This document shows, one piece after another, positions 967-50,247 of a stretch of DNA of 64,000 bases. The notes below the pieces were generated by a model. That model was not told the DNA's origin. It saw only the letters and a program-made list of their open reading frames with translations, and made no database searches. Position 1 is the stretch's first letter. The number at the start of each line of letters is the position of its first letter. Position numbers and translations under genes: made by a program. The DNA comes from Chloroflexota bacterium (GTDB lineage: Bacteria > Chloroflexota > UBA6077 > FW602-bin22), in the NCBI GenBank assembly GCA_004297775.1, contig SCUE01000032.1:1-64000 (forward strand), written 5' to 3'.

Positions 967-1809
967 TTACCGCAGCAACCAGCCGTTCAAGGTCGGCAAA
1001 TCCGGCGCGATGAGATGGGGCCGAGCGTCGCCGGTCGCGGCCACTCCCGACGCCCGATCGAAGTCACCGGTCGTCACCAGCACCGCCCACATATTCGCCT
1101 GGCGCGCGGCCGGAACATCCGAGTCAATCCGATCGCCGACGTGGATCGACAGGTCGGCCACGCAACCCATCTTGCGGAGCGCCTGAATCATCAACTCCGG
1201 CGCCGGCTTCCCGATGTTGAACGGGTCACGCCCCGTTGCGACGCGTATCGCCGCCGCCAGCGCGCCCGCGCCAGGAATCGCGCCCGTCTCGGTGGGCACG
1301 GTCGCATCCATATTCGCGACGACAAACTGGGCGCCGCGTCGAATCGCGTTGCAGGCGTGAAACAACCGTTGAAACGTCAGTTGGCGGTTCACGCCAACGG
1401 CCACATACTCGGCGCGATCCTCGTCATCGGTCAGACGACACCCGCCGGCGATGAGGCAATCGCGCTGATCGCGATCGCCGACCGGATAGACCAGTGGCTG
1501 GCCGGAACGGCCGTGCGTCCCGGCGTGATCGCGCGCGATGAACGCCGCCATCGCATCGGCCGCGGTGAGGACGTTGGCATCACCAACCGGCAAGCCGATC
1601 GCGCGAAAGTGCGCCGCGGCCCGTTGGGCGGTCTGACGGCTATTGTTCGTCACGATCTGCCAGGGAATGCCCCGCGCATCGAGTCCGCGAAGCAAGTCGG
1701 CCGCGCCTGGCAGCGCGTTTCGCCCGCGGTGCAGAACGCCGTCGGCATCCAGCGTCACCCCGGCTGGCTTCACATCGCGCAATCGTTCGTCCAAGTACTC
1801 GATGGTCAT
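967..1809 (-). CDS. HAD-superfamily hydrolase, NagD/phosphoglycolate phosphatase-like (class IIA)
   Basis: A haloacid-dehalogenase-fold phosphatase of about 280 residues, the usual size for the NagD-like class IIA group. Motif I is LDADGVL (nucleophile Asp followed by DADG), motif II is the TNN in WQIVTNNSRQ, motif III contains the Lys of FNIGKPAPE, and motif IV is VGDRIDSD near residue 230. The cap sits between motifs II and III. These enzymes dephosphorylate small phosphate esters such as 2-phosphoglycolate or nucleoside monophosphates; the substrate cannot be told here. The frame is open to 1881, but ATG at 1809 (or 1812) follows a GGAGA with proper spacing, so I use 1809. It stands alone, divergent from the operon starting at 2048. 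Confidence 0.85.
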   Translation of the reverse strand: MTIEYLDERLRDVKPAGVTLDADGVLHRGRNALPGAADLLRGLDARGIPWQIVTNNSRQTAQRAAAHFRAIGLPVGDANVLTAADAMAAFIARDHAGTHGRSGQPLVYPVGDRDQRDCLIAGGCRLTDDEDRAEYVAVGVNRQLTFQRLFHACNAIRRGAQFVVANMDATVPTETGAIPGAGALAAAIRVATGRDPFNIGKPAPELMIQALRKMGCVADLSIHVGDRIDSDVPAARQANMWAVLVTTGDFDRASGVAATGDARPHLIAPDLPTLNGWLLR

Positions 1810-2032
1810 CATTCTCCGGCCTTCAGGCCTATCCCTTCCCATGTATTCGTTCGCGCCACTGTTGCTCGCGTCCGAGACCATTCACCGTGCGCCGATCTGA
1901 ACTCATCCGCGTGGAGTAGGAGCGTCGAGTCAGTTGCCGCCGCTGTCGAGTGGAGTTGGCGCACGCGTTTCTGGAGTCGAATGGTACGCCGGCCGGAGTG
2001 TGATCGGTCGCGACCGTTCCTCATCGCGTCGC

Positions 2033-4620: not shown

Positions 4621-5459
4621 GGCCGCCGCGCTACGCCGCGCTGAGCATCGTCGGCGACCGCGATCGCCACCCGAACGAGGATGCCTGGGCGATCGGCGTT
4701 GGCGGTGAAACGTACGCCGTTTGCGATGGCGTCACGACGAGCCACTTGCCCGATGGCCGCTATCCGTCATGGGCGGGCGGCGGAGTCGCGGCCCACGTCG
4801 CCGCCGATGAGCTCGTTTCCCTGGACTCAAGTCCGCCCGGCGCGCGGCACGCATCTCCTCGCCAACACATCATTGCCGCGCTCGCCCGCGCCGACGCTCT
4901 CGTCGCAGGCCTGAATGCCAACCGCGACGATGGCCCGATCGATTTCGACCTCCACGACGCCTATTCGACGACCGCGGTCGTCGCCAATCTCGCCGACGGT
5001 CGTGTTCACGTCGCGTGCCTCGGCGACGCCGCGGCCATCCTCGCGCCGGCCCACGCTCCACCCTATCCACTCACGCGGTTTCAGACCGACGCGGCCGAGG
5101 CGATTCGCGACATCCTCCTCGCCGACGGCCGGGAGCCGCGCGAGCGGGCCAGCCTCTTCCGCCGCGAGCTTCGAAACCGTCCGTCGGCCTGGCGCAACCG
5201 AGCCGGTGTCGGCTACGGCGTTCTCGATGGCACGGGCCGCTATCGGCCAATGATCGAGTGGCGGCAAGCCCCGATCGGTCGAGGTGATCGGCTCTACATC
5301 GCGACCGACGCGGTCGGTCGCTGTCTGGCCGATCGGATCGAGCGCGGCGAGCCGTTGCCAACCGCACCCGAAGAGGTCATCGCCGTCACGCGCGCGTGGG
5401 AGCGTAGGACACGCGCGGCTTATCAGGACGACGCGACAGTTCTGATAGTCAGTCTGTAG
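4617..5459 (+). CDS. PP2C-family protein Ser/Thr phosphatase
   Basis: A metal-dependent (Mn/Mg) phosphatase of 280 residues. The signature metal ligands are visible: NEDAW near residue 20, VCDGVTTS near 37, IATDAVG near 225 and the C-terminal DDATVLIV. The N terminus begins directly at the PP2C fold, with no membrane segment or sensor domain, so it is a soluble enzyme. The GTG start overlaps the phosphofructokinase stop by four bases (GTGA), giving translational coupling. It may reverse phosphorylation of enzymes in the same operon, but no kinase gene lies in the window, so the partner is unknown. Confidence 0.85.
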   Translation: MRPPRYAALSIVGDRDRHPNEDAWAIGVGGETYAVCDGVTTSHLPDGRYPSWAGGGVAAHVAADELVSLDSSPPGARHASPRQHIIAALARADALVAGLNANRDDGPIDFDLHDAYSTTAVVANLADGRVHVACLGDAAAILAPAHAPPYPLTRFQTDAAEAIRDILLADGREPRERASLFRRELRNRPSAWRNRAGVGYGVLDGTGRYRPMIEWRQAPIGRGDRLYIATDAVGRCLADRIERGEPLPTAPEEVIAVTRAWERRTRAAYQDDATVLIVSL

Positions 5460-5483
5460 ACCGAGCGCGCGGTAACGTGCCTG

Positions 5484-6311
5484 TCAGCTATCCGGTACGA
5501 CGACGACTCCGGTCATGAACGTGTGAATCGCGCAGTAGAAGATGTACGTTCCAGGGGTCCACAGTTTCTCCGCGGGCGCTTCCGGTAGCGGCGTCGGCCG
5601 ATTCAGCGGCCGTAACGGAAACGGCTGCGCCAGACGCCCCGGATTCAGTTCGCCGATGATCGGTGAGAACGCTCCGCCGGTGGTCGGTTCCGTTCCAGGC
5701 GAGGTCGAGAACACGATGCTGTGGCGCAGCGTGCTCGAGTTCTGGAATTGAATCTGATTCTCTGCCTGGATGATCCGACGCCGCGGCACGAAACGAAAGT
5801 CCTGGATGATGATCGCCGGCTCGGTCGCCCGCGGCAGCGTCCACGGCGTCCCGTCGCGCACGAAAGCCAGCCTCCGTGTGCCGCGCGCCTCGCGCAACAG
5901 CAACGTCATCCGCACCGTCTTGCGCACGCGGTCGACATTGCCGGAGACGAATGCCGTTCGATTCGGGTCGAACCACCGCCACGAGACGCGCCGCGAGGTC
6001 ACGACCATGTCACGCGCCTCGGCCGCGACGGGGGTATGCAATGGATTCGCCGAGTAGTAGATGAACTTCCGGCTGGGCGGATCCACGTGCAGGCAATCAC
6101 GGTTCGCACTGGGATTCCCGCTGCAGGCCGCGACCGGTGTCGACGCGTTCTTCGGCGTGTTCGGAATCATCCAGACGTACGTTGGCGTCGTTGTGGCGAT
6201 CTGGGCGAGCGCGCTGGCTGCGTCAACCGAATCCGTGGGCCGCGCACCGAGAGCGAGAAACGACAACGTGACGAACGCGAAGAGCGCCGTCCAGAACCGT
6301 CCTCGCGTCAC
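5484..6311 (-). CDS. exported cupredoxin-domain protein
   Basis: A 275-residue secreted protein. Residues 1 to about 30 (RGRFWTALFAFVTLSFLALG) form a signal peptide. The C-terminal 110 residues form a plastocyanin-like cupredoxin: LRHSIVF gives the first His and FYCAIHTFMTG gives Cys, His and Met, a complete type-1 copper ligand set. The middle part (about 35-160) has a VRKTVRMTLLL strand-rich segment I do not recognise. It probably carries electrons or binds copper outside the membrane. The open frame extends to GTG 6338, but GTG at 6311 has a GGAGG about seven bases before it, so that start is used. Convergent with the PP2C gene. Confidence 0.8.
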   Translation of the reverse strand: MTRGRFWTALFAFVTLSFLALGARPTDSVDAASALAQIATTTPTYVWMIPNTPKNASTPVAACSGNPSANRDCLHVDPPSRKFIYYSANPLHTPVAAEARDMVVTSRRVSWRWFDPNRTAFVSGNVDRVRKTVRMTLLLREARGTRRLAFVRDGTPWTLPRATEPAIIIQDFRFVPRRRIIQAENQIQFQNSSTLRHSIVFSTSPGTEPTTGGAFSPIIGELNPGRLAQPFPLRPLNRPTPLPEAPAEKLWTPGTYIFYCAIHTFMTGVVVVPDS

Positions 6312-6400
6312 GCTTACCGCCTCCACCCGATCCAACACAACCGCGCATCAACACGACGGCCAAACCGACCCGCCAGTCTAATACTATTCTCGGCAGACCA

Positions 6401-7711
6401 ATGCGGCGCAATATCGACTTCGCATTTCTCCGCGGACTGCCCGGGCGGCGTGTCATCAACGCGGCATCCGGTACGACGCTCTTCTCATCCGGCGACGCCG
6501 CGCCCGATCTGCTGGTCGTCGCCTCGGGCCGCATCGAGTTGCGCTATGAGGGGCTGCCGATCGCTGAGTGTGGTCCCGGCGATCTGGTCGGCGAAATCGG
6601 CGCCCTCAACGGCGGCGGTCATAGCTACGTCGCAATAGCCACGGCGACCGCGACCTTGCTCGCGCTTCCGGTCGCGGTGATCCCGGAGGCCATCGAACGC
6701 TCGTCACGCTTCGCACTCGGCCTCGCCCAGACGTGCGCCGACCGCGCTCGCCAGATCGCCGATGCGATGTCCGCCACCCCGGGATATGAGACGATCGCGA
6801 CCTCGGAAGACGTGAATGGCGGGACGCCGCCGAATCCGCTGTCATCCGGATCGAGCCTCTTCGGACCTTCGATGCCGATCCCCGACGCCGAGACCACGCA
6901 GAATCTCCCCGCTCCCGACGGTACACCCGTTGCGTCATCTCTGCTCGACGACTCGTTTCTGCCGCCTTGGGAAGCCGACCGCCGTGCCGCCGAGCGCGCG
7001 CAGACCGCCAACGCCGCGATCGACAAATCGATTCCGCGTCCCGAGGCGTTCTGGGCCAAGTCCTTCACCTGTCCGATCTGCTCGGGCCGGTTTCAGGCGC
7101 AGACGCCCCGAGACCAGTTCATCGAGATCGCCAGTCGCGACTCCGACCTCATGGAGGTCCATCGCGGGATCAACTTGCTGCACTATGCCGTCAACGTCTG
7201 CCCGACCTGCTTCTTCGCCGCGTTCCCGGAGGATTTCTCGCGCGTGCCGGAAGCGGAGCGCACCGCGATCGAGCAAAGTCTGTCTCCCCTGCGACCGCGC
7301 GTCGCCGCGAACGACTTCTCGCTCTATCGCGATGCTCGTCTTGCCCAGGTCTCGTTCGAGCTCGCGATCGTCTGCTACGGCCCTCGCCGCGGTTCATACC
7401 GCAAGGTGGCCGGCCTCTACCATCGCCTTGCCTGGCTTGCCCGCCAGAGTGGCGACGCCGGTCGCGAATCCCGGTTCCTTGAGACCGCGATGCGCGGGTA
7501 CATCACGGTGCTTGAGAAGGGGCAGGTGGACGAGCCACGGACCGAGATCACGATGACATACCTGGTCGCGGAACTGGCTCGCCGCAATGGCGACACACCG
7601 ACCGCGTCGCGCTGGATCAGCCAACTACTTCAGGACCCGCGCCTGAGCGGCCACAAGATGATCGCCGACCTGGCGCGCGACTTACGCCAGAACCTCCGCG
7701 CCACCCGCTGA
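6401..7711 (+). CDS. cNMP-binding-fold plus DUF2225 protein
   Basis: A 436-residue soluble protein with two parts. Residues 1-125 have the Crp/CAP beta-roll: TLFSSGDAAPDLLVVASGRIEL, then GDLVGEIGAL at 60-69. In the phosphate-binding cassette the Arg that contacts the cyclic nucleotide phosphate in CAP is not present (GGGHSYVAIA follows), so true cNMP binding is doubtful. Residues 126-215 are a low-complexity linker. Residues 216-436 match DUF2225: zinc-ribbon-like CPIC at 224-227 and CPTC at 267-270, then helical TPR-like repeats. No DNA-binding HTH follows the beta-roll. A TACTAT box lies 13 bases before the ATG. Function unknown. The only cyclase gene in the window is at 24243. Confidence 0.8.
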   Translation: MRRNIDFAFLRGLPGRRVINAASGTTLFSSGDAAPDLLVVASGRIELRYEGLPIAECGPGDLVGEIGALNGGGHSYVAIATATATLLALPVAVIPEAIERSSRFALGLAQTCADRARQIADAMSATPGYETIATSEDVNGGTPPNPLSSGSSLFGPSMPIPDAETTQNLPAPDGTPVASSLLDDSFLPPWEADRRAAERAQTANAAIDKSIPRPEAFWAKSFTCPICSGRFQAQTPRDQFIEIASRDSDLMEVHRGINLLHYAVNVCPTCFFAAFPEDFSRVPEAERTAIEQSLSPLRPRVAANDFSLYRDARLAQVSFELAIVCYGPRRGSYRKVAGLYHRLAWLARQSGDAGRESRFLETAMRGYITVLEKGQVDEPRTEITMTYLVAELARRNGDTPTASRWISQLLQDPRLSGHKMIADLARDLRQNLRATR

Positions 7712-44679: not shown

Positions 44680-45804
44680 TCAACTGATGCGAGCTCTGAT
44701 TTCAGCCGCCAGATCGGACGCGCCAATCGTGCCTTCGCGGTTCGGTTCCGGCAATGTCGCGCGCTCGTCTGACGCACTCGCGGCATCCGAGGCATCGAGC
44801 ACAGCCACGTCCACTCGGATCGGCGCGCCGGTGAGCGCGGCGAGGTTCAGCGCGTCGCTCGGACGCGCGTCTATCGCCCGCGTACCTTCCGATGTATCGA
44901 CGACTACTTCCGCGTAGAAAACGCTGTCGGCGAGCCGGCTGATACGTACTTCCCGCATGCGCCCACCGCCGACCGTCAAGAGGCGCGCCGCGAACTCAAA
45001 CGTTCCGGGCCGCGGGCTCTGAGCACCGGTGACCCGCAGTGCGAGCGCTTCGGCCTCGTAGCGGCCAATCCAGATCGGCAGCCGGCGGCTTCCCCCGACT
45101 TGCTCCAGGATCACGATGTGCCGCGCCGGTTCGCCTTCCCTCGGTGAACGCCGGACGTCGGCGATCCGCATCTCCAGGAATGTGTTCTGAGTCTCAACTG
45201 ACATAGCGTTCTCCTTCCAAAGCATCCATAGCCTCTGCCGTAGATGGCGTCGCCCGTTGTGCAACCGCGCCTTGATCGCGCCGACTTCGACCTCAAGCAA
45301 GTCCGCCGTCTCGGCATGGCTGAGCCCGCCGAAGTAGAAGAGCAGCACGGCCGCGCGCTGCCCCCGTGGCAGGTCATCGACGGCACGGCGTACGCGAGAA
45401 GCCAGTTCGGTGGCTGTCGCGATGTCCTCCGGCGTGTTTCCATCGTCGACCGGTTCGGGCGCAAGGCGACCACCGTGAAGGGTTTCCCACGACCAGTCGG
45501 CACGCGAGGGTGCGCGAAGCCAGCCGCGGCACACGTTGAGCCCGATGCCGGCGAGCCAGGATCCGAAGCGGTCCGGACGCCGGAGTCGATCCAGGCCAAG
45601 AAACGCCTGCAACGCGGCCTCCTGCGCCGCGTCTTCGGCCAGGACCGAATCACCGAGCATCCGTCGACAGAGCGCCAGCACGAGCCCGCGATGCCGGCCG
45701 TACAGTTCGGCGAATGCGTCGTTGTCGCCTGCCCGAGCGGCATCGATGAGTGCCGCGTCGCTGTCCAGCGCGCGATCGCCTGACCGGTCGGCATATCTGG
45801 CCAT
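44680..45804 (-). CDS. ECF sigma factor fused to bifunctional nuclease (BFN/DUF151) domain
   Basis: A 374-residue fusion. Residues 18-105 form sigma region 2 (ALIDAARAGDNDAFAELYGRHRGLVLALCRRML, then DAAQEAALQAFLGLDRLRRPDRFGSWL). Region 4 is at about 140-190 (DDLPRGQRAAVLLFYFGGLSHAETADLLEVEVGAIKARLHNGR). Residues 201-374 form a BFN domain: HIVILEQVGGSRRLPIWIGRYEAEALAL, RPGTFEFAARLL, FYAEVVV and IDARPSDALNLAALTGAPI. Transcription may be leaderless (CACTAT, 7 bases before ATG 45804). An internal ATG at 45204 with AAGGAG could also produce the BFN part alone. No anti-sigma gene is adjacent, so the BFN domain may modulate the sigma part. Confidence 0.88.
   Translation of the reverse strand: MARYADRSGDRALDSDAALIDAARAGDNDAFAELYGRHRGLVLALCRRMLGDSVLAEDAAQEAALQAFLGLDRLRRPDRFGSWLAGIGLNVCRGWLRAPSRADWSWETLHGGRLAPEPVDDGNTPEDIATATELASRVRRAVDDLPRGQRAAVLLFYFGGLSHAETADLLEVEVGAIKARLHNGRRHLRQRLWMLWKENAMSVETQNTFLEMRIADVRRSPREGEPARHIVILEQVGGSRRLPIWIGRYEAEALALRVTGAQSPRPGTFEFAARLLTVGGGRMREVRISRLADSVFYAEVVVDTSEGTRAIDARPSDALNLAALTGAPIRVDVAVLDASDAASASDERATLPEPNREGTIGASDLAAEIRARIS
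45202..45217 (-). promoter_or_regulatory. internal ribosome binding site and ATG at the sigma/BFN junction
   Basis: On the minus strand ggaaggagaacgctATG: AAGGAG about seven bases before ATG 45204, exactly at the domain border (residue 201 of the fusion). It resembles the ribosome binding site of the ABC ATPase gene at 17616 (ggaaggagaacgcgATG). It predicts a separate 174-residue BFN protein. Confidence 0.6.
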
Positions 45805-45811
45805 CTGCGTG

Positions 45812-45817
45812 ATAGTG
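45812..45817 (-). promoter_or_regulatory. -10 box CACTAT, 7 bases before the sigma-BFN ATG
   Basis: Minus-strand CACTAT with 7 bases to ATG 45804 and no ribosome binding site, lying in the 32-base gap after the GNAT gene. Consistent with a leaderless start. Confidence 0.35.
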
Positions 45818-45836
45818 AAGGGAATTGTGTTCCGGG

Positions 45837-46436
45837 TTACGCGGTGACCGTTGCCTGTGACGCGACCTCTCGCCGCACGATCGCCCGACTCTGCGACGCC
45901 AGCCGCGCGACCGTGAACCCGGCCCGCTCGTAAGCCGACAGCAGCCCCCACCAGGCGAAGACGGGCGGAATCGACTCGGTGCGCGGGATCACCGGATACG
46001 CCTCGACCGTCGTCGCGCCCTGTTCGGCCGCCCAGGAGCAGGCGACGTCGATCATCTCGACCGTCAGCCCGCGTCGCCGCCAGGCGCGATCGACGAACAG
46101 GCAGACGATCGACCAGACGGGACGATCGTCAAGCGGCTTCAGCAGCCGCGAGTTTGCCAGACGCGCGTACTCGGCGCGCGGCCGCGTCGCCACCCACGCC
46201 ACCGGCTGCTCGTCAACGTACCCCAGCAGGCCCGGCGGCGGCCCTGCCTCGACGATTTCGCGCATCGCGGCCCGATTCCCGGCGCCGTTCTCCCGCGTCC
46301 CGGCGTGGAAGGCCTTTCCGACCAGTCGCGGATACATGCACCAGCAGCCGGCGCAGGCGCCCTTCGGACCGAACAGCCGCTCGAAATCGTCCCAACACTC
46401 GAGCGTCAGCGGCCGAACGCTGATCTCGCTTGGCAT
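45837..46436 (-). CDS. GNAT-family N-acetyltransferase
   Basis: A 199-residue protein. WSIVCLFVDRAWRRRGLTVEMIDVACSWAAEQGATTVEAYPV is the acetyl-CoA-binding motif A with the R/Q-x-x-G/A turn RRRGL. The N-terminal segment has an unusual Cys cluster, GACAGCWCMYPRL (about residue 27-40), typical of one uncharacterised GNAT subgroup. FAWWGLLSAYERAGF is motif B. Substrate unknown. The frame starts GTG-ATG at 46439/46436; ATG is used. Same strand as, and 32 bases before, the sigma-BFN gene. Confidence 0.82.
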   Translation of the reverse strand: MPSEISVRPLTLECWDDFERLFGPKGACAGCWCMYPRLVGKAFHAGTRENGAGNRAAMREIVEAGPPPGLLGYVDEQPVAWVATRPRAEYARLANSRLLKPLDDRPVWSIVCLFVDRAWRRRGLTVEMIDVACSWAAEQGATTVEAYPVIPRTESIPPVFAWWGLLSAYERAGFTVARLASQSRAIVRREVASQATVTA

Positions 46437-46613
46437 CACGGGAACTCTATACGGCGGTATCGTTCATTTCACGGCCACTGCTGGCGCATGCGGGAAAAAC
46501 CCTGATCCGCGCCGCTCCGGGGCGCCTTTAGCATCCCACGCGGCGGATTCCAGAACCCGCCGAGGCGAGTGGCCGCGCAGCCAGACGCCATCACGGACGC
46601 GAGGTGCCGAAGC

Positions 46614-47849
46614 GTGGCTCGAGCCGACGACGCCGCAAGTCGAGGCGGCGCACACATTGGGGATTCGCCTGGTCCGTACCGGCCGGCCCGCGGTGGGACG
46701 TTCTTCGACGTCGATTTCGATCGGAGTCCATTCACCGTCGCCTGGGAAATCACGCGCGCCTGTGCCCTGGCCTGCATCCACTGCCGCGCCTCGGCGATCC
46801 CGCGGCGGAGCGCCAGCGAACTGACGACCGAGGAAGGCATCGACCTGATCGACCAGATCGTCGCGCTGGGCACACCGATCCTGGTCGTAACCGGCGGCGA
46901 TCCGCTCATGCGCGACGACGTCTACGACCTGCTCGAGCACGCATCCGGCCGCGGGCTCCGCGTTGCGCTCTCTCCGAGCGCAACCGGCCGCCTGACGCGC
47001 CCAGCGCTGGAGCGTATCAAGGCGACCGGGGCTCAGATGTTGCATTTGAGCCTCGACGGCTCCTCGGCTGACGTGCACGACCGCTTCCGGGGTGTCCACG
47101 GGTCGTTCGATCGCACGCTCGCGCGGGCGCGCGACGCGGTCGAGCTCGGCTTCGTACTCCAGGTCGGCACGACCGTCAGCCGCCACAATGTGCACGACCT
47201 CGAGGCGATCGCCGAGCGCGTGGCCGCCGCCAGAGTCAACGTCTGGACGCTGTTTTTCCTGGTCCCGACCGGTCGCGCGCAGGCAGAGGACATGCTCGAT
47301 CCCCTCGAGCACGAGCGGGTTTTCCACTGGCTGCGCGAGTACGGGCGCGGTGCGCCATTCCACGTCCGAACGATCGCGGCACAGCATTACCGACGGGTCG
47401 TCATCGAGGCAGAGCGGCCGGACCGCGCCCACCAGGGCGACGCGCCGCCGCGCTGGGAGTACACCGGCACGGGCTTCAGCGCCAGCGTTCGGGCGGGCGG
47501 TTCGGCGATGCGCGGGGTCAATGACGGCAATGGATTCTGCTTCGTCGGCCACACCGGTGAGGTCTGCCCATCCGGATTTCTCCCAATCGTGGCAGGCAAT
47601 GTCCGCGGGCAGCCGCTGGCTGAGATCTACCGCGACTCTTCGTTGTTCCGCGCACTGCGGGATCCAACTCGTCTGAAGGGGAAGTGCGGCGCGTGCGAGT
47701 ACCGGGCGGTCTGTGGCGGCAGCCGCGCCCGCGCCCACGCCGTGACGGGCGATTTCCTCGCATCGGATCCGTCCTGTGCCTACGTCCCGACGGGCCACCC
47801 GAAACCGGCCGGCGTCGGCGAACTCCACTCTGACACGAGGCGCGCGTGA
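46614..47849 (+). CDS. radical SAM/SPASM protein next to haem genes (AhbD/NirJ-related group)
   Basis: A protein of about 411 residues. VAWEITRACALACIHCRAS (about 44-62) has the CxxxCxxC cluster motif. LVVTGGDPLMRDDVYDLL is the GGE-like SAM motif. HLSLDGSSADVHDRFRGV follows. The C-terminal SPASM-type Cys set is GEVCPSGFLP, KGKCGACEYRAVCGGSRARAHA and DPSCAYVP, for one or two extra clusters. From memory the pattern fits the TIGR04053 group, related to NirJ and AhbC/AhbD, which modify haem precursors. GTG 46614 follows GAGGTG; a GTG at 46569 is possible. Its end overlaps the ferrochelatase start (GTGA). Confidence 0.85.
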   Translation: MARADDAASRGGAHIGDSPGPYRPARGGTFFDVDFDRSPFTVAWEITRACALACIHCRASAIPRRSASELTTEEGIDLIDQIVALGTPILVVTGGDPLMRDDVYDLLEHASGRGLRVALSPSATGRLTRPALERIKATGAQMLHLSLDGSSADVHDRFRGVHGSFDRTLARARDAVELGFVLQVGTTVSRHNVHDLEAIAERVAAARVNVWTLFFLVPTGRAQAEDMLDPLEHERVFHWLREYGRGAPFHVRTIAAQHYRRVVIEAERPDRAHQGDAPPRWEYTGTGFSASVRAGGSAMRGVNDGNGFCFVGHTGEVCPSGFLPIVAGNVRGQPLAEIYRDSSLFRALRDPTRLKGKCGACEYRAVCGGSRARAHAVTGDFLASDPSCAYVPTGHPKPAGVGELHSDTRRA

Positions 47850-48778
47850 ACGACGGCCCAATCGGTGTCCTCCTCCTGGCCTACGGTTCGCCGCAATCGC
47901 CCGACGATATCGAGACCTACTACACCGACATCCGTCGCGGGCGCCCGCCCACGCCCGAGCAGGTCGCCGAGCTGCGCGATCGTTACCGGCGTATCGGCGG
48001 AGTCTCGCCCCTCAGCCGGATCACGGCCGATCAGGCCACGGCGCTCCGGGACAAACTCGGACCCGGCTTTCGTGTCTACGTCGGCATGAAACATTGGAAT
48101 CCGCGCATCCCCGACACCGTCGCGCGGATGGCCGACGACGGTATCCGGCGCGCCGTCTGTCTGGCGCTGGCGCCGCACTACTCGCGACTATCGATCGGCG
48201 ACTATCACGCCAGGGTCCGCGACGCGGCCGCGCGGCTCGACGTTCCAATCGAGTTGCACGAGGTCGAAAGCTGGCACCTCTCGCCGCTGTTCATCGAGGC
48301 GGTCGTCCGGCGGGTCGACGATGCGTTAGCCCGCTTTCCAACCGGCGCGCGTGACACCGTTTCGGTGCTCTTCACTGCCCATAGCTTGCCATCGCGGATC
48401 GTCGACGAAGGGGATCCGTACCCGGCGCAGCTCACCGCGACCGGCGCGACCGTCGCCGCTCGGCTCGGTCTTGGCACCTGGTCGATCGCCTGGCAGAGCG
48501 CCGGCCGAACACCCGAGCCATGGCTGGGTCCGGACGTGAAGGCGGCGATGGCCGATCAGGCCGCCCGCGGCGCGCGGGCGTTCCTCGTCTGTCCGATCGG
48601 ATTCGTGACCGACCACCTCGAGGTGCTCTATGACCTCGATATCGAGTGCCGGGCGCACGCTCGCGCACTCGGCGTTCTCTTCGAACGGACCGCCTCGCCG
48701 AACGCCGACGCGGACTTCATTGCCGCGCTGGCTGAAGTCGTGCGCGCGCGTCTAGCGTCGGCGGTGACTCGGACGTGA
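47846..48778 (+). CDS. cpfC: coproporphyrin ferrochelatase
   Basis: A 310-residue ferrochelatase inserting Fe(II) into a porphyrin. It is strikingly like the Bacillus monofunctional enzyme: LLLAYGSPQSPDDIETYYTDIRRGR at the N terminus (the Tyr of AYG is the iron-side ligand in Bacillus), IGGVSPLSRIT, LAPHYS, TAHSLPSRI with the catalytic His, GDPYPAQL, WQSAGRTPEPWLGPDV and GFVTDHLEVLYDLD with the catalytic Glu. This is the form of the coproporphyrin-dependent route, so Fe-coproporphyrin III is the expected product. GTG start overlaps the radical SAM gene and the stop overlaps the oxidase gene, one tight operon. Confidence 0.92.
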   Translation: MNDGPIGVLLLAYGSPQSPDDIETYYTDIRRGRPPTPEQVAELRDRYRRIGGVSPLSRITADQATALRDKLGPGFRVYVGMKHWNPRIPDTVARMADDGIRRAVCLALAPHYSRLSIGDYHARVRDAAARLDVPIELHEVESWHLSPLFIEAVVRRVDDALARFPTGARDTVSVLFTAHSLPSRIVDEGDPYPAQLTATGATVAARLGLGTWSIAWQSAGRTPEPWLGPDVKAAMADQAARGARAFLVCPIGFVTDHLEVLYDLDIECRAHARALGVLFERTASPNADADFIAALAEVVRARLASAVTRT

Positions 48779-50247
48779 GCGGCTCTTCGTTGCGCGTCGT
48801 CGTGGTGGGCGGCGGCGTCACTGGACTTGCGGCGGCCCACGAGCTGGCGCGGTTAGCGGCCGAGCGCCCCGCGGACGGTCTACGCGTCACGTTGATCGAA
48901 GCCGCCGATCGTCTCGGCGGAAAAGTGCAGACCGACCACGTGGATGAGCTTCTGCTCGAACGCGGACCGGACGCGGTTTTCCTGCGCAGCCCGTTCTGGC
49001 TCGAGTTGTGTCAGCGCCTCGGCCTGGCAGATCAGGTGGTCCGCGCCAATCCGGAGCATCGGCAGAGCTATATCCTGCGGCGAGGACGGCTCCACGGCAT
49101 CCCGGGCGGGATGGAAGGGGGCGTGCCGCGGTCGATCTGGCCCATGGCCGCGTCTGGCCTACTATCGCCCTGGGGCAAGGTGCGGGCCGCGCTCGAGGCA
49201 ATCGTGCCGGCGGCGCATCCGGACGGCGACGAGTCGGTCGACGGATTCATACGCCGCCGATTTGGCGCCGAGGTCGCCGAACGAATCGCCCTGCCGCTGC
49301 TCGGCGGCATCTACAGCAACGACACGCGACGGCTCAGCCTGCTCGCGACCACGCCACACCTGCGCGCAGCCGAACGCGAACACCGTAGCCTGCTCCTCGG
49401 CGCGCGCCGGGCCGCCCATCGGCCGGCCGCGAACAAGGGCCCAGGTAGCGGCGGTCGGTCCCAGAGTCCGTTCGTCTCGCTGCGCGGCGGTCTCGAGTGC
49501 CTGACGACAGCGCTGGCGGCGAGGCTGTCGGGCGTCGATGTTCGCCCAAGGACGCGAGTCATGGCACTCATGCCAACACCCACTGGCGAGTCGGCCTTCA
49601 CGCTCGCGCTCGGCGACGGCCAGCGGTTGGTGGCCGATCGCGTGATCCTGACAGTGCCAGCGTTCGCCGCCGCCGAACTGCTGCGGCCGCTCAGCGTCGT
49701 CGCCGCGATGCAACTCGACCGCGTGAACTACGCGTCGGCGGCGATCGTGACGCTCGCGTTCCCGGCCGGATCAATCACGCTCCCGCATGGGAGCGGCTTC
49801 ATCGTGTCCCCGGATGAAGGTCGGCTGCTGTCGGCCTGTAGCTGGACATCGCAGAAGTGGCCGCATACCGCGCCGGACGGTGTCATCCTCCTTCGGTGCC
49901 ACCTTCACGCCACCGAGCACGCCACGATCCTCGATCTCGACGACATCGGACTGGAACGGACGGTGCGTGCCGAGCTTGGCGAACTCCTCGGTATCACCGC
50001 CACGCCACGGCTCACGCGCGTGTACCGCTGGCCTCGAGCGCTCGCCTCGTACGAGGTCGGGCACCTGGACCGTCTCGCGACGCTCGATCGGGCGCTGGCC
50101 GATCTGCCAGGCGTATTCCTGGCCGGCGCCGGTTATCGCGGCGTCGGCGTGGCTGAGTGCGCGCGTCAGGGCATCGAGGCCGCCGCGCGCACGGTCGCTG
50201 TTCCCAGCCCGAATGGCGTGCCAGCGTCCGTCGCCGGGACTCGGTAG
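48775..50247 (+). CDS. cgoX: coproporphyrinogen/protoporphyrinogen oxidase, HemY type
   Basis: A 490-residue FAD oxidase. VVVVGGGVTGLAAAHELARL is the dinucleotide-binding motif. LIEAADRLGGKVQTDHVDELLLERGPDAVF is the usual second segment. PLLGGIYSNDTRRLSLLATTP (about 175-195) and SLRGGLECLTTALAARL (about 232) are HemY hallmarks. LAGAGYRGVGVAECARQGIEAA ends the FAD site. With a Bacillus-type ferrochelatase it probably oxidises coproporphyrinogen III. Start GTGA overlap at 48775. Confidence 0.92.
   Translation: MSGSSLRVVVVGGGVTGLAAAHELARLAAERPADGLRVTLIEAADRLGGKVQTDHVDELLLERGPDAVFLRSPFWLELCQRLGLADQVVRANPEHRQSYILRRGRLHGIPGGMEGGVPRSIWPMAASGLLSPWGKVRAALEAIVPAAHPDGDESVDGFIRRRFGAEVAERIALPLLGGIYSNDTRRLSLLATTPHLRAAEREHRSLLLGARRAAHRPAANKGPGSGGRSQSPFVSLRGGLECLTTALAARLSGVDVRPRTRVMALMPTPTGESAFTLALGDGQRLVADRVILTVPAFAAAELLRPLSVVAAMQLDRVNYASAAIVTLAFPAGSITLPHGSGFIVSPDEGRLLSACSWTSQKWPHTAPDGVILLRCHLHATEHATILDLDDIGLERTVRAELGELLGITATPRLTRVYRWPRALASYEVGHLDRLATLDRALADLPGVFLAGAGYRGVGVAECARQGIEAAARTVAVPSPNGVPASVAGTR

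Follow-up and report, generated by a model that had tools for sequence, protein, structure and literature searches.

The gene located at positions 44680–45804 of the minus strand of the analyzed window (the entire 64,000-nt stretch of contig SCUE01000032.1 from a Chloroflexota bacterium) encodes an ECF sigma factor fused to a BFN/DUF151 domain, and it appears likely, with a probability of roughly 60%, that this sigma factor co-produces its own BFN partner or regulator from a single reading frame and is autoregulated. The frame extends from an ATG (45804–45802) to a TGA (44682–44680, included in the above coordinates) without a single internal stop and encodes 374 amino acids, so that the in-frame succession of sigma regions 2 and 4 and a complete BFN domain, originally predicted from the DNA sequence, is borne out by the profile searches. 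The sigma part (aa 1–190, positions 45235–45804, minus strand) contains region 2 (Sigma70_r2, aa 34–98, 48 bits against the Pfam cut-off of 24) and region 4 (Sigma70_r4_2, aa 137–188, 53 bits against 26), lacks sigma-3 and sigma-1.1, and scores 77.8 with the NCBIfam profile TIGR02937, sigma70-ECF (cut-off 42.9); this combination is the hallmark of the ECF (group 4) sigma factors. The BFN_dom profile (PF02577) matches aa 231–340 nearly completely with 99 bits, well above the curated cut-off of 27, and together with a TM0160-like fold this places the domain in the BFN/DUF151 family. The putative catalytic Thr/His/Asp triad of TM0160 is a functional proposal and does not define membership in the family. 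No SnoaL match is detected by Pfam in the protein from the window, which accordingly does not belong to the ECF41 type with its SnoaL_2 extension.

The same architecture is found in 23 of the 23 aligned relatives. An AlphaFold2 model of the window protein, built on 23 relatives, is of high confidence for the sigma and BFN parts alike, and the pLDDT values of sigma regions 2 and 4 mostly exceed 90; the low-confidence segments are the N-terminus, the linker between regions 2 and 4, and the disordered junction (aa 201–204). The best match of the BFN part in the PDB is TM0160 (1vjl/1sj5), with a TM-score to the target of about 0.8, and the sigma part matches SigW, AlgU and E. coli sigmaE. The RPSD motif of BFN/DUF151 proteins is present in the fusions as well. 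One further BFN protein, an ordinary standalone one, is encoded in the host genome, which comprises 4.03 Mb on 38 contigs.

BFN/DUF151 proteins are widespread in bacteria, archaea and plants. The search for the fused architecture that had been proposed along with the original prediction identifies 38 sigma-BFN genes in at least three phyla, namely Chloroflexota/Thermomicrobiota, Actinomycetota and Armatimonadota. The distribution is wide yet patchy, with fusions in 5 of the 29 genomes of the host's class. Scanning a single genome for each species detects more of them in Thermomicrobiales, other Chloroflexi, Actinomycetota (records labelled Nocardioidaceae, Streptosporangiaceae, Gaiellaceae and Planotetraspora) and Armatimonadetes, and a 400-genome sample of the phylum yields additional ones, including three in one single-contig genome of 11.3 Mb; of the remaining additions to the set, one was found in the class to which an actinobacterial carrier belongs and one at the locus L081. 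Among the carriers is a cultured species, Planotetraspora phitsanulokensis (L079), in which the match to BFN is degenerate. A plasmid search returned no record that covers 80% of the query; among the matches listed, the best are sigma-only.

Because the same architecture recurs in 38 genes, an assembly error or a lost stop codon can be ruled out as the origin of the fusion. The sigma and BFN parts share one frame in every fusion with the single exception of L062, whose sigma part is disrupted and spans two frames; none of the approximately 90 BFN loci contains a split sigma/BFN gene pair, and no standalone BFN gene at the loci examined is preceded by a sigma gene. Hence the alternative considered at the outset, that relatives possess two separate genes and that the fusion is an accident, did not hold up. 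The sole separate genes are additional, sigma-less BFN paralogs, each of which is the next gene to a fusion in two large-genome Chloroflexota species. In the phylogenetic tree of the sigma part, the fusions cluster together with a few unfused or truncated members, and the ECF41 sigma factors form a separate clade. In the BFN tree, most of the fusions fall outside the clade of standalone proteins but five (L070, L072, L199, L203 and L249) are found inside it, so that fusion may have occurred more than once, an inference that the long branches of this tree make unsure.

The junction between the two domains contains a candidate second translation start. An in-frame ATG (codon 201, positions 45202–45204, minus strand) is preceded, with a gap of 6 nt, by the Shine-Dalgarno (SD) sequence AAGGAG (45211–45216, minus strand), for which the energy of the duplex with the anti-SD is −11.0 kcal/mol. 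This well-spaced pair had been recognized in the original prediction, and the predicted product starting at Met201, here denoted BFN-S (positions 44683–45204, minus strand; 174 aa), encompasses the BFN part. Met201 is invariant in the first five fusions. In the larger set, scored with a profile after a strict motif regular expression had missed most loci, 35 of the 38 fusions have at the junction an SD core 5–11 nt upstream of an in-frame start codon, which is GTG in L056, L064 and L068 and ATG in the others; the median spacing is 6.5 nt. When ATG alone is considered, and a segment of fixed length (the 50 codons that follow region 4) is scored without choosing the start by its SD, the SD and start are present in 32 of the 38 fusions (31 of 37 in the main set, plus L081), compared with 2 of the 30 SnoaL-fused ECF41 sigma factors drawn from the same phylum (P = 4e-11, for relatives that are not statistically independent). 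An SD precedes 16% of the other in-frame ATGs of the fusion genes and 10% of the out-of-frame ATGs in the scored segment. The amino acid sequences of the linkers are unalignable across the larger set and the SD and start are nevertheless retained; the SD core occurs in all three codon phases and encodes, depending on the gene, KEE, RR, GG, EG, REV, VEE or WED.

The synonymous sites provide a further line of evidence. In a test that keeps the protein constant and redraws the codons according to the usage of the respective gene, 34 of 36 genes have an SD stronger than the mean of the simulations; the combined P is 2e-9, or 6e-8 if each divergent lineage is represented by a single row. The signal is carried mainly by rare AGG-AGG codons for Arg-Arg in divergent lineages. 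In the window's own clade the shuffle is not significant by itself (P = 0.34 for the window), nor is it in the first, close set (Fisher 0.16), because the conserved W-K-E (Lys-Glu) codons create an SD in any case. These W-K-E codons are compatible with the notion that only the full-length protein is made, with the BFN domain at its C-terminus acting as a regulatory extension of the ECF41 kind and the SD-like sequence representing a by-product of the Lys/Glu-rich linker or an interdomain site of ribosome pausing; the regulation in cis by the extensions of ECF41, ECF42 and CorE (PMC8999054) is also in line with this explanation. However, a single product seems unlikely considering that the SD is accompanied by a start codon in nearly all fusions and in every codon phase, that rare AGG codons supply the SD in lineages without W-K-E, and that the ECF41 fusions generally lack such a pair.

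Several deep branches have their internal Met exactly where the free BFN proteins begin (M-I-x-V-x-V), a coincidence that also argues against a single product. This position of the Met implies that the ancestral arrangement probably comprised two genes, sigma first and BFN second, and is therefore what would be expected if an overlapping two-gene operon had lost the sigma stop codon and the internal SD and ATG were a functionless leftover. Such a vestige appears very improbable: retention of the start in at least three phyla, despite the divergence of the linkers beyond alignment, is unexpected of a leftover, the SD signal is seen at synonymous sites, and no split pair was found among the approximately 90 loci. 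Thus, an SD and a start codon are conserved at the domain boundary, which is the distinctive feature of a gene within a gene, and the additional production of a free 174-aa BFN-S by internal initiation, proposed from the single sequence in the original prediction, is strongly supported by the comparison of the fusion genes.

The few exceptions appear to be informative in this respect. The fusion L075 (from G022) has no SD at the junction, and its chain contains a second, degenerate BFN unit before the well-conserved one (hhalign probability of 95%, 154 columns). In L250, L252 and L254, the internal SDs are weak or displaced, and a sigma-less paralog is the next gene on the same strand, about 10–42 nt away; the alignments of these paralogs begin at or near the internal Met. 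The third copy in G351, L251, lacks a sigma-less neighbor and has kept a strong SD. For L249 (the same as L200; fusion at 4986–6134 of L249), neither an internal start nor a recognizable partner was identified. These cases, few as they are, suggest that a second BFN unit may be required. The sigma-less BFN encoded by the next gene strengthens the case for two products, and it directly exemplifies a sigma-less form in two species only. At L250 (2898–6080), L252 (2484–6101) and L254 (2475–6068), all on the minus strand, the fusions additionally possess long C-terminal extensions; these proteins comprise about 700 aa in all, and nothing beyond BFN has a Pfam name.

Upstream of the fusion gene, a predicted autoregulatory promoter, TAACC-N17-CACTAT, is located at positions 45812–45839 of the minus strand (−35 element at 45839–45835, −10 element at 45817–45812), and the TAA of its TAACC also terminates the acetyltransferase gene located upstream. 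The strict form of this promoter, in which the spacer is always 17 nt, is present upstream of 20 of 34 fusions compared with 0.01 expected in shuffles, and a loose form upstream of 23 of 34 loci compared with 0.17; most members thus have an upstream predicted promoter of their own with an AAC-containing −35 element, as is typical of ECF sigma factors. Within the 4.03 Mb of the host genome, no exact match exists other than the fusion's own site, and several other carriers have one or a few matches each, one of them at the fusion. A search of the host genome with one mismatch allowed reveals no clear regulon: the matches are fewer than those of a reversed-pattern control and lie mostly inside genes, and one intergenic site (L292) has no recognizable target. 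The main start codon (45802–45804, minus strand) follows the predicted −10 element by 7 nt, has no SD and is probably leaderless. At many loci, the start codon is similarly found 4–15 nt after the −10 element with the SD absent, as expected of a leaderless or nearly leaderless mRNA. As the match is unique in the host genome and stops 7 nt short of the ATG, autoregulation and leaderless translation are probable for the fusion, with SD-driven translation of the free BFN.

With regard to the role of the BFN part, the original prediction proposed a coupling of promoter recognition to nucleic acid cleavage or, alternatively, an anti-sigma-like function. Under the former possibility, the fused or free BFN would cut DNA or RNA at promoters or transcripts. 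The plant BBD proteins, which contain DUF151, display DNase and RNase activity in vitro, and the putative active site of TM0160 consists of Thr57, His58 and Asp115, a proposal based on structure (PMC7249048). The Asp of the RPSD motif is retained in 34 of 37 fusions, which would be compatible with such an activity, but the putative triad His is found in 8 of 37 compared with 51 of 56 standalone BFN proteins (a set from which the fusion L174 was left out). In the window protein, the putative Thr and Asp are preserved and the His is replaced by Phe. The literature examined contained no report of a bacterial BFN acting as a nuclease. A sigma factor coupled to a working nuclease is therefore quite improbable and, in particular, catalysis by the fused domain via the putative triad is unlikely; the degeneration of the His makes a role in regulation or dimerization the more likely one. 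Hence, the conserved fusion and the conserved internal start of the original interpretation stand, and cleavage coupled to promoter recognition is less supported. Dimerization through DUF151 has been reported for TM0160 and Rv1829 (PMC7249048).

The genomic neighborhoods provide no candidate for a separate regulator: clustering of the neighbor proteins in 37 loci reveals neither a recurrent neighbor nor an anti-sigma gene. A cognate anti-sigma gene next door is common, yet not defining for all ECF groups. In the absence of a conserved neighbor or anti-sigma gene, the simplest role for the BFN domain is regulation of the attached sigma factor.

Taken together, these observations are best compatible with the following scheme, in which the sigma factor encodes its own regulator. 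The sigma factor would drive its own promoter, TAACC-N17-CACTAT, as its conservation suggests, and full-length sigma-BFN would be translated from the leaderless or nearly leaderless start. Ribosomes would also initiate at the internal SD and ATG of the same mRNA, yielding the predicted free BFN-S. Because BFN domains are dimeric, BFN-S could pair with the BFN domain of sigma-BFN, and the pair would then regulate the sigma factor, most likely as an anti-sigma-like brake or a ligand-sensing partner and not as a nuclease. Such an intragenic brake or partner would limit the positive feedback of the sigma factor, and the amount of sigma factor relative to its partner would be determined by the balance between leaderless and SD-led initiation. 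At about even odds, the fusions can be generalized as a conserved ECF class that encodes its regulator within the sigma gene, with a leaderless sigma-BFN, an SD-led BFN partner and an autoregulating promoter that is possibly the only strict target of the sigma factor; in members with a lost or weak internal start, duplication in cis (L075) or the next gene (L250, L252 and L254) would supply the partner. This scheme bears on the control of sigma factors without an anti-sigma partner and offers BFN/DUF151 a role as a dimerizing regulatory domain. The predictions are concrete (the 174-aa product, the promoter sequence and the interaction) and can be tested cheaply in E. coli, and one-gene switches with orthogonal promoters would be of use in synthetic biology.

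Several related architectures were detected in the course of this analysis. In L199 (1489–3219, plus strand), the sigma-BFN chain includes an extra C-terminal Clp_N domain of the Clp adaptor type. In L095 from Thermomicrobiales (4875–6467, plus strand), an ECF sigma factor is fused to an ATP-synthase alpha/beta-type nucleotide-binding domain (PF00006), with a Met at the junction as well. The L077 protein (1133–1957, plus strand), whose sigma part is close to the fused group, differs in its C-terminal part, for which Pfam yields no match, and also contains a Met at the boundary. Five BFN proteins from the host's class (L041, L044, L037, L035 and L039), which form one clade in the BFN tree, possess an N-terminal hydrophobic segment resembling a membrane anchor. 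Adjoining the fusion in the window is an apparent run of heme biosynthesis genes (46569–50247, plus strand), named by eye from the sequence and consisting of a radical-SAM protein, a ferrochelatase-like protein and a protoporphyrinogen-oxidase-like protein; this run is not conserved beside other fusions.

No description of the sigma-BFN fusion and no case of a sigma factor that makes its own regulator by internal translation were found in the open-access literature covered, a body of work that, for the fusion, does not include the 2021 ECF classification. The closest analogs on the sigma side are ECF41/SigJ-type (SnoaL_2), ECF42, ECF56 and CorE/ECF238, which likewise consist of ECF regions 2 and 4 and have no adjacent anti-sigma gene; in these groups, as in sigma-BFN, the C-terminal extension is likely to regulate the sigma factor (PMC8999054, PMC3426412). 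In those groups, however, the extension is SnoaL, TPR or Cys-rich instead of BFN/DUF151, and ECF41 differs from the fusions in its position in the sigma tree and in the absence of the conserved internal SD and ATG. On the BFN side, TM0160, Rv1829 and plant BBD share the fold and the RPSD motif with the fused domain, which is distinguished by the attached sigma factor, the loss of the putative His in most members and a C-terminal tail with a conserved helix. In-frame internal starts that yield the C-terminal part as a separate protein are known in RpnL/RpnS (PMC10327210), SctQ/SpaO (PMC13059759), Cas11 produced from Cas8 or Cas10d (Cas11b; PMC11899642) and two-polypeptide endolysins (PMC9430671), and several of these short products bind the full-length protein and thereby complete or block it (PMC10327210, PMC13059759, PMC11899642, PMC9430671). 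Unlike in these systems, the long protein here is a sigma factor, its main start looks leaderless and is preceded by its own predicted promoter, and the two products are predicted ones. Thus, both halves of the arrangement, fused ECF sigma factors and genes within genes, are known, and it is their combination that is new within the literature covered.
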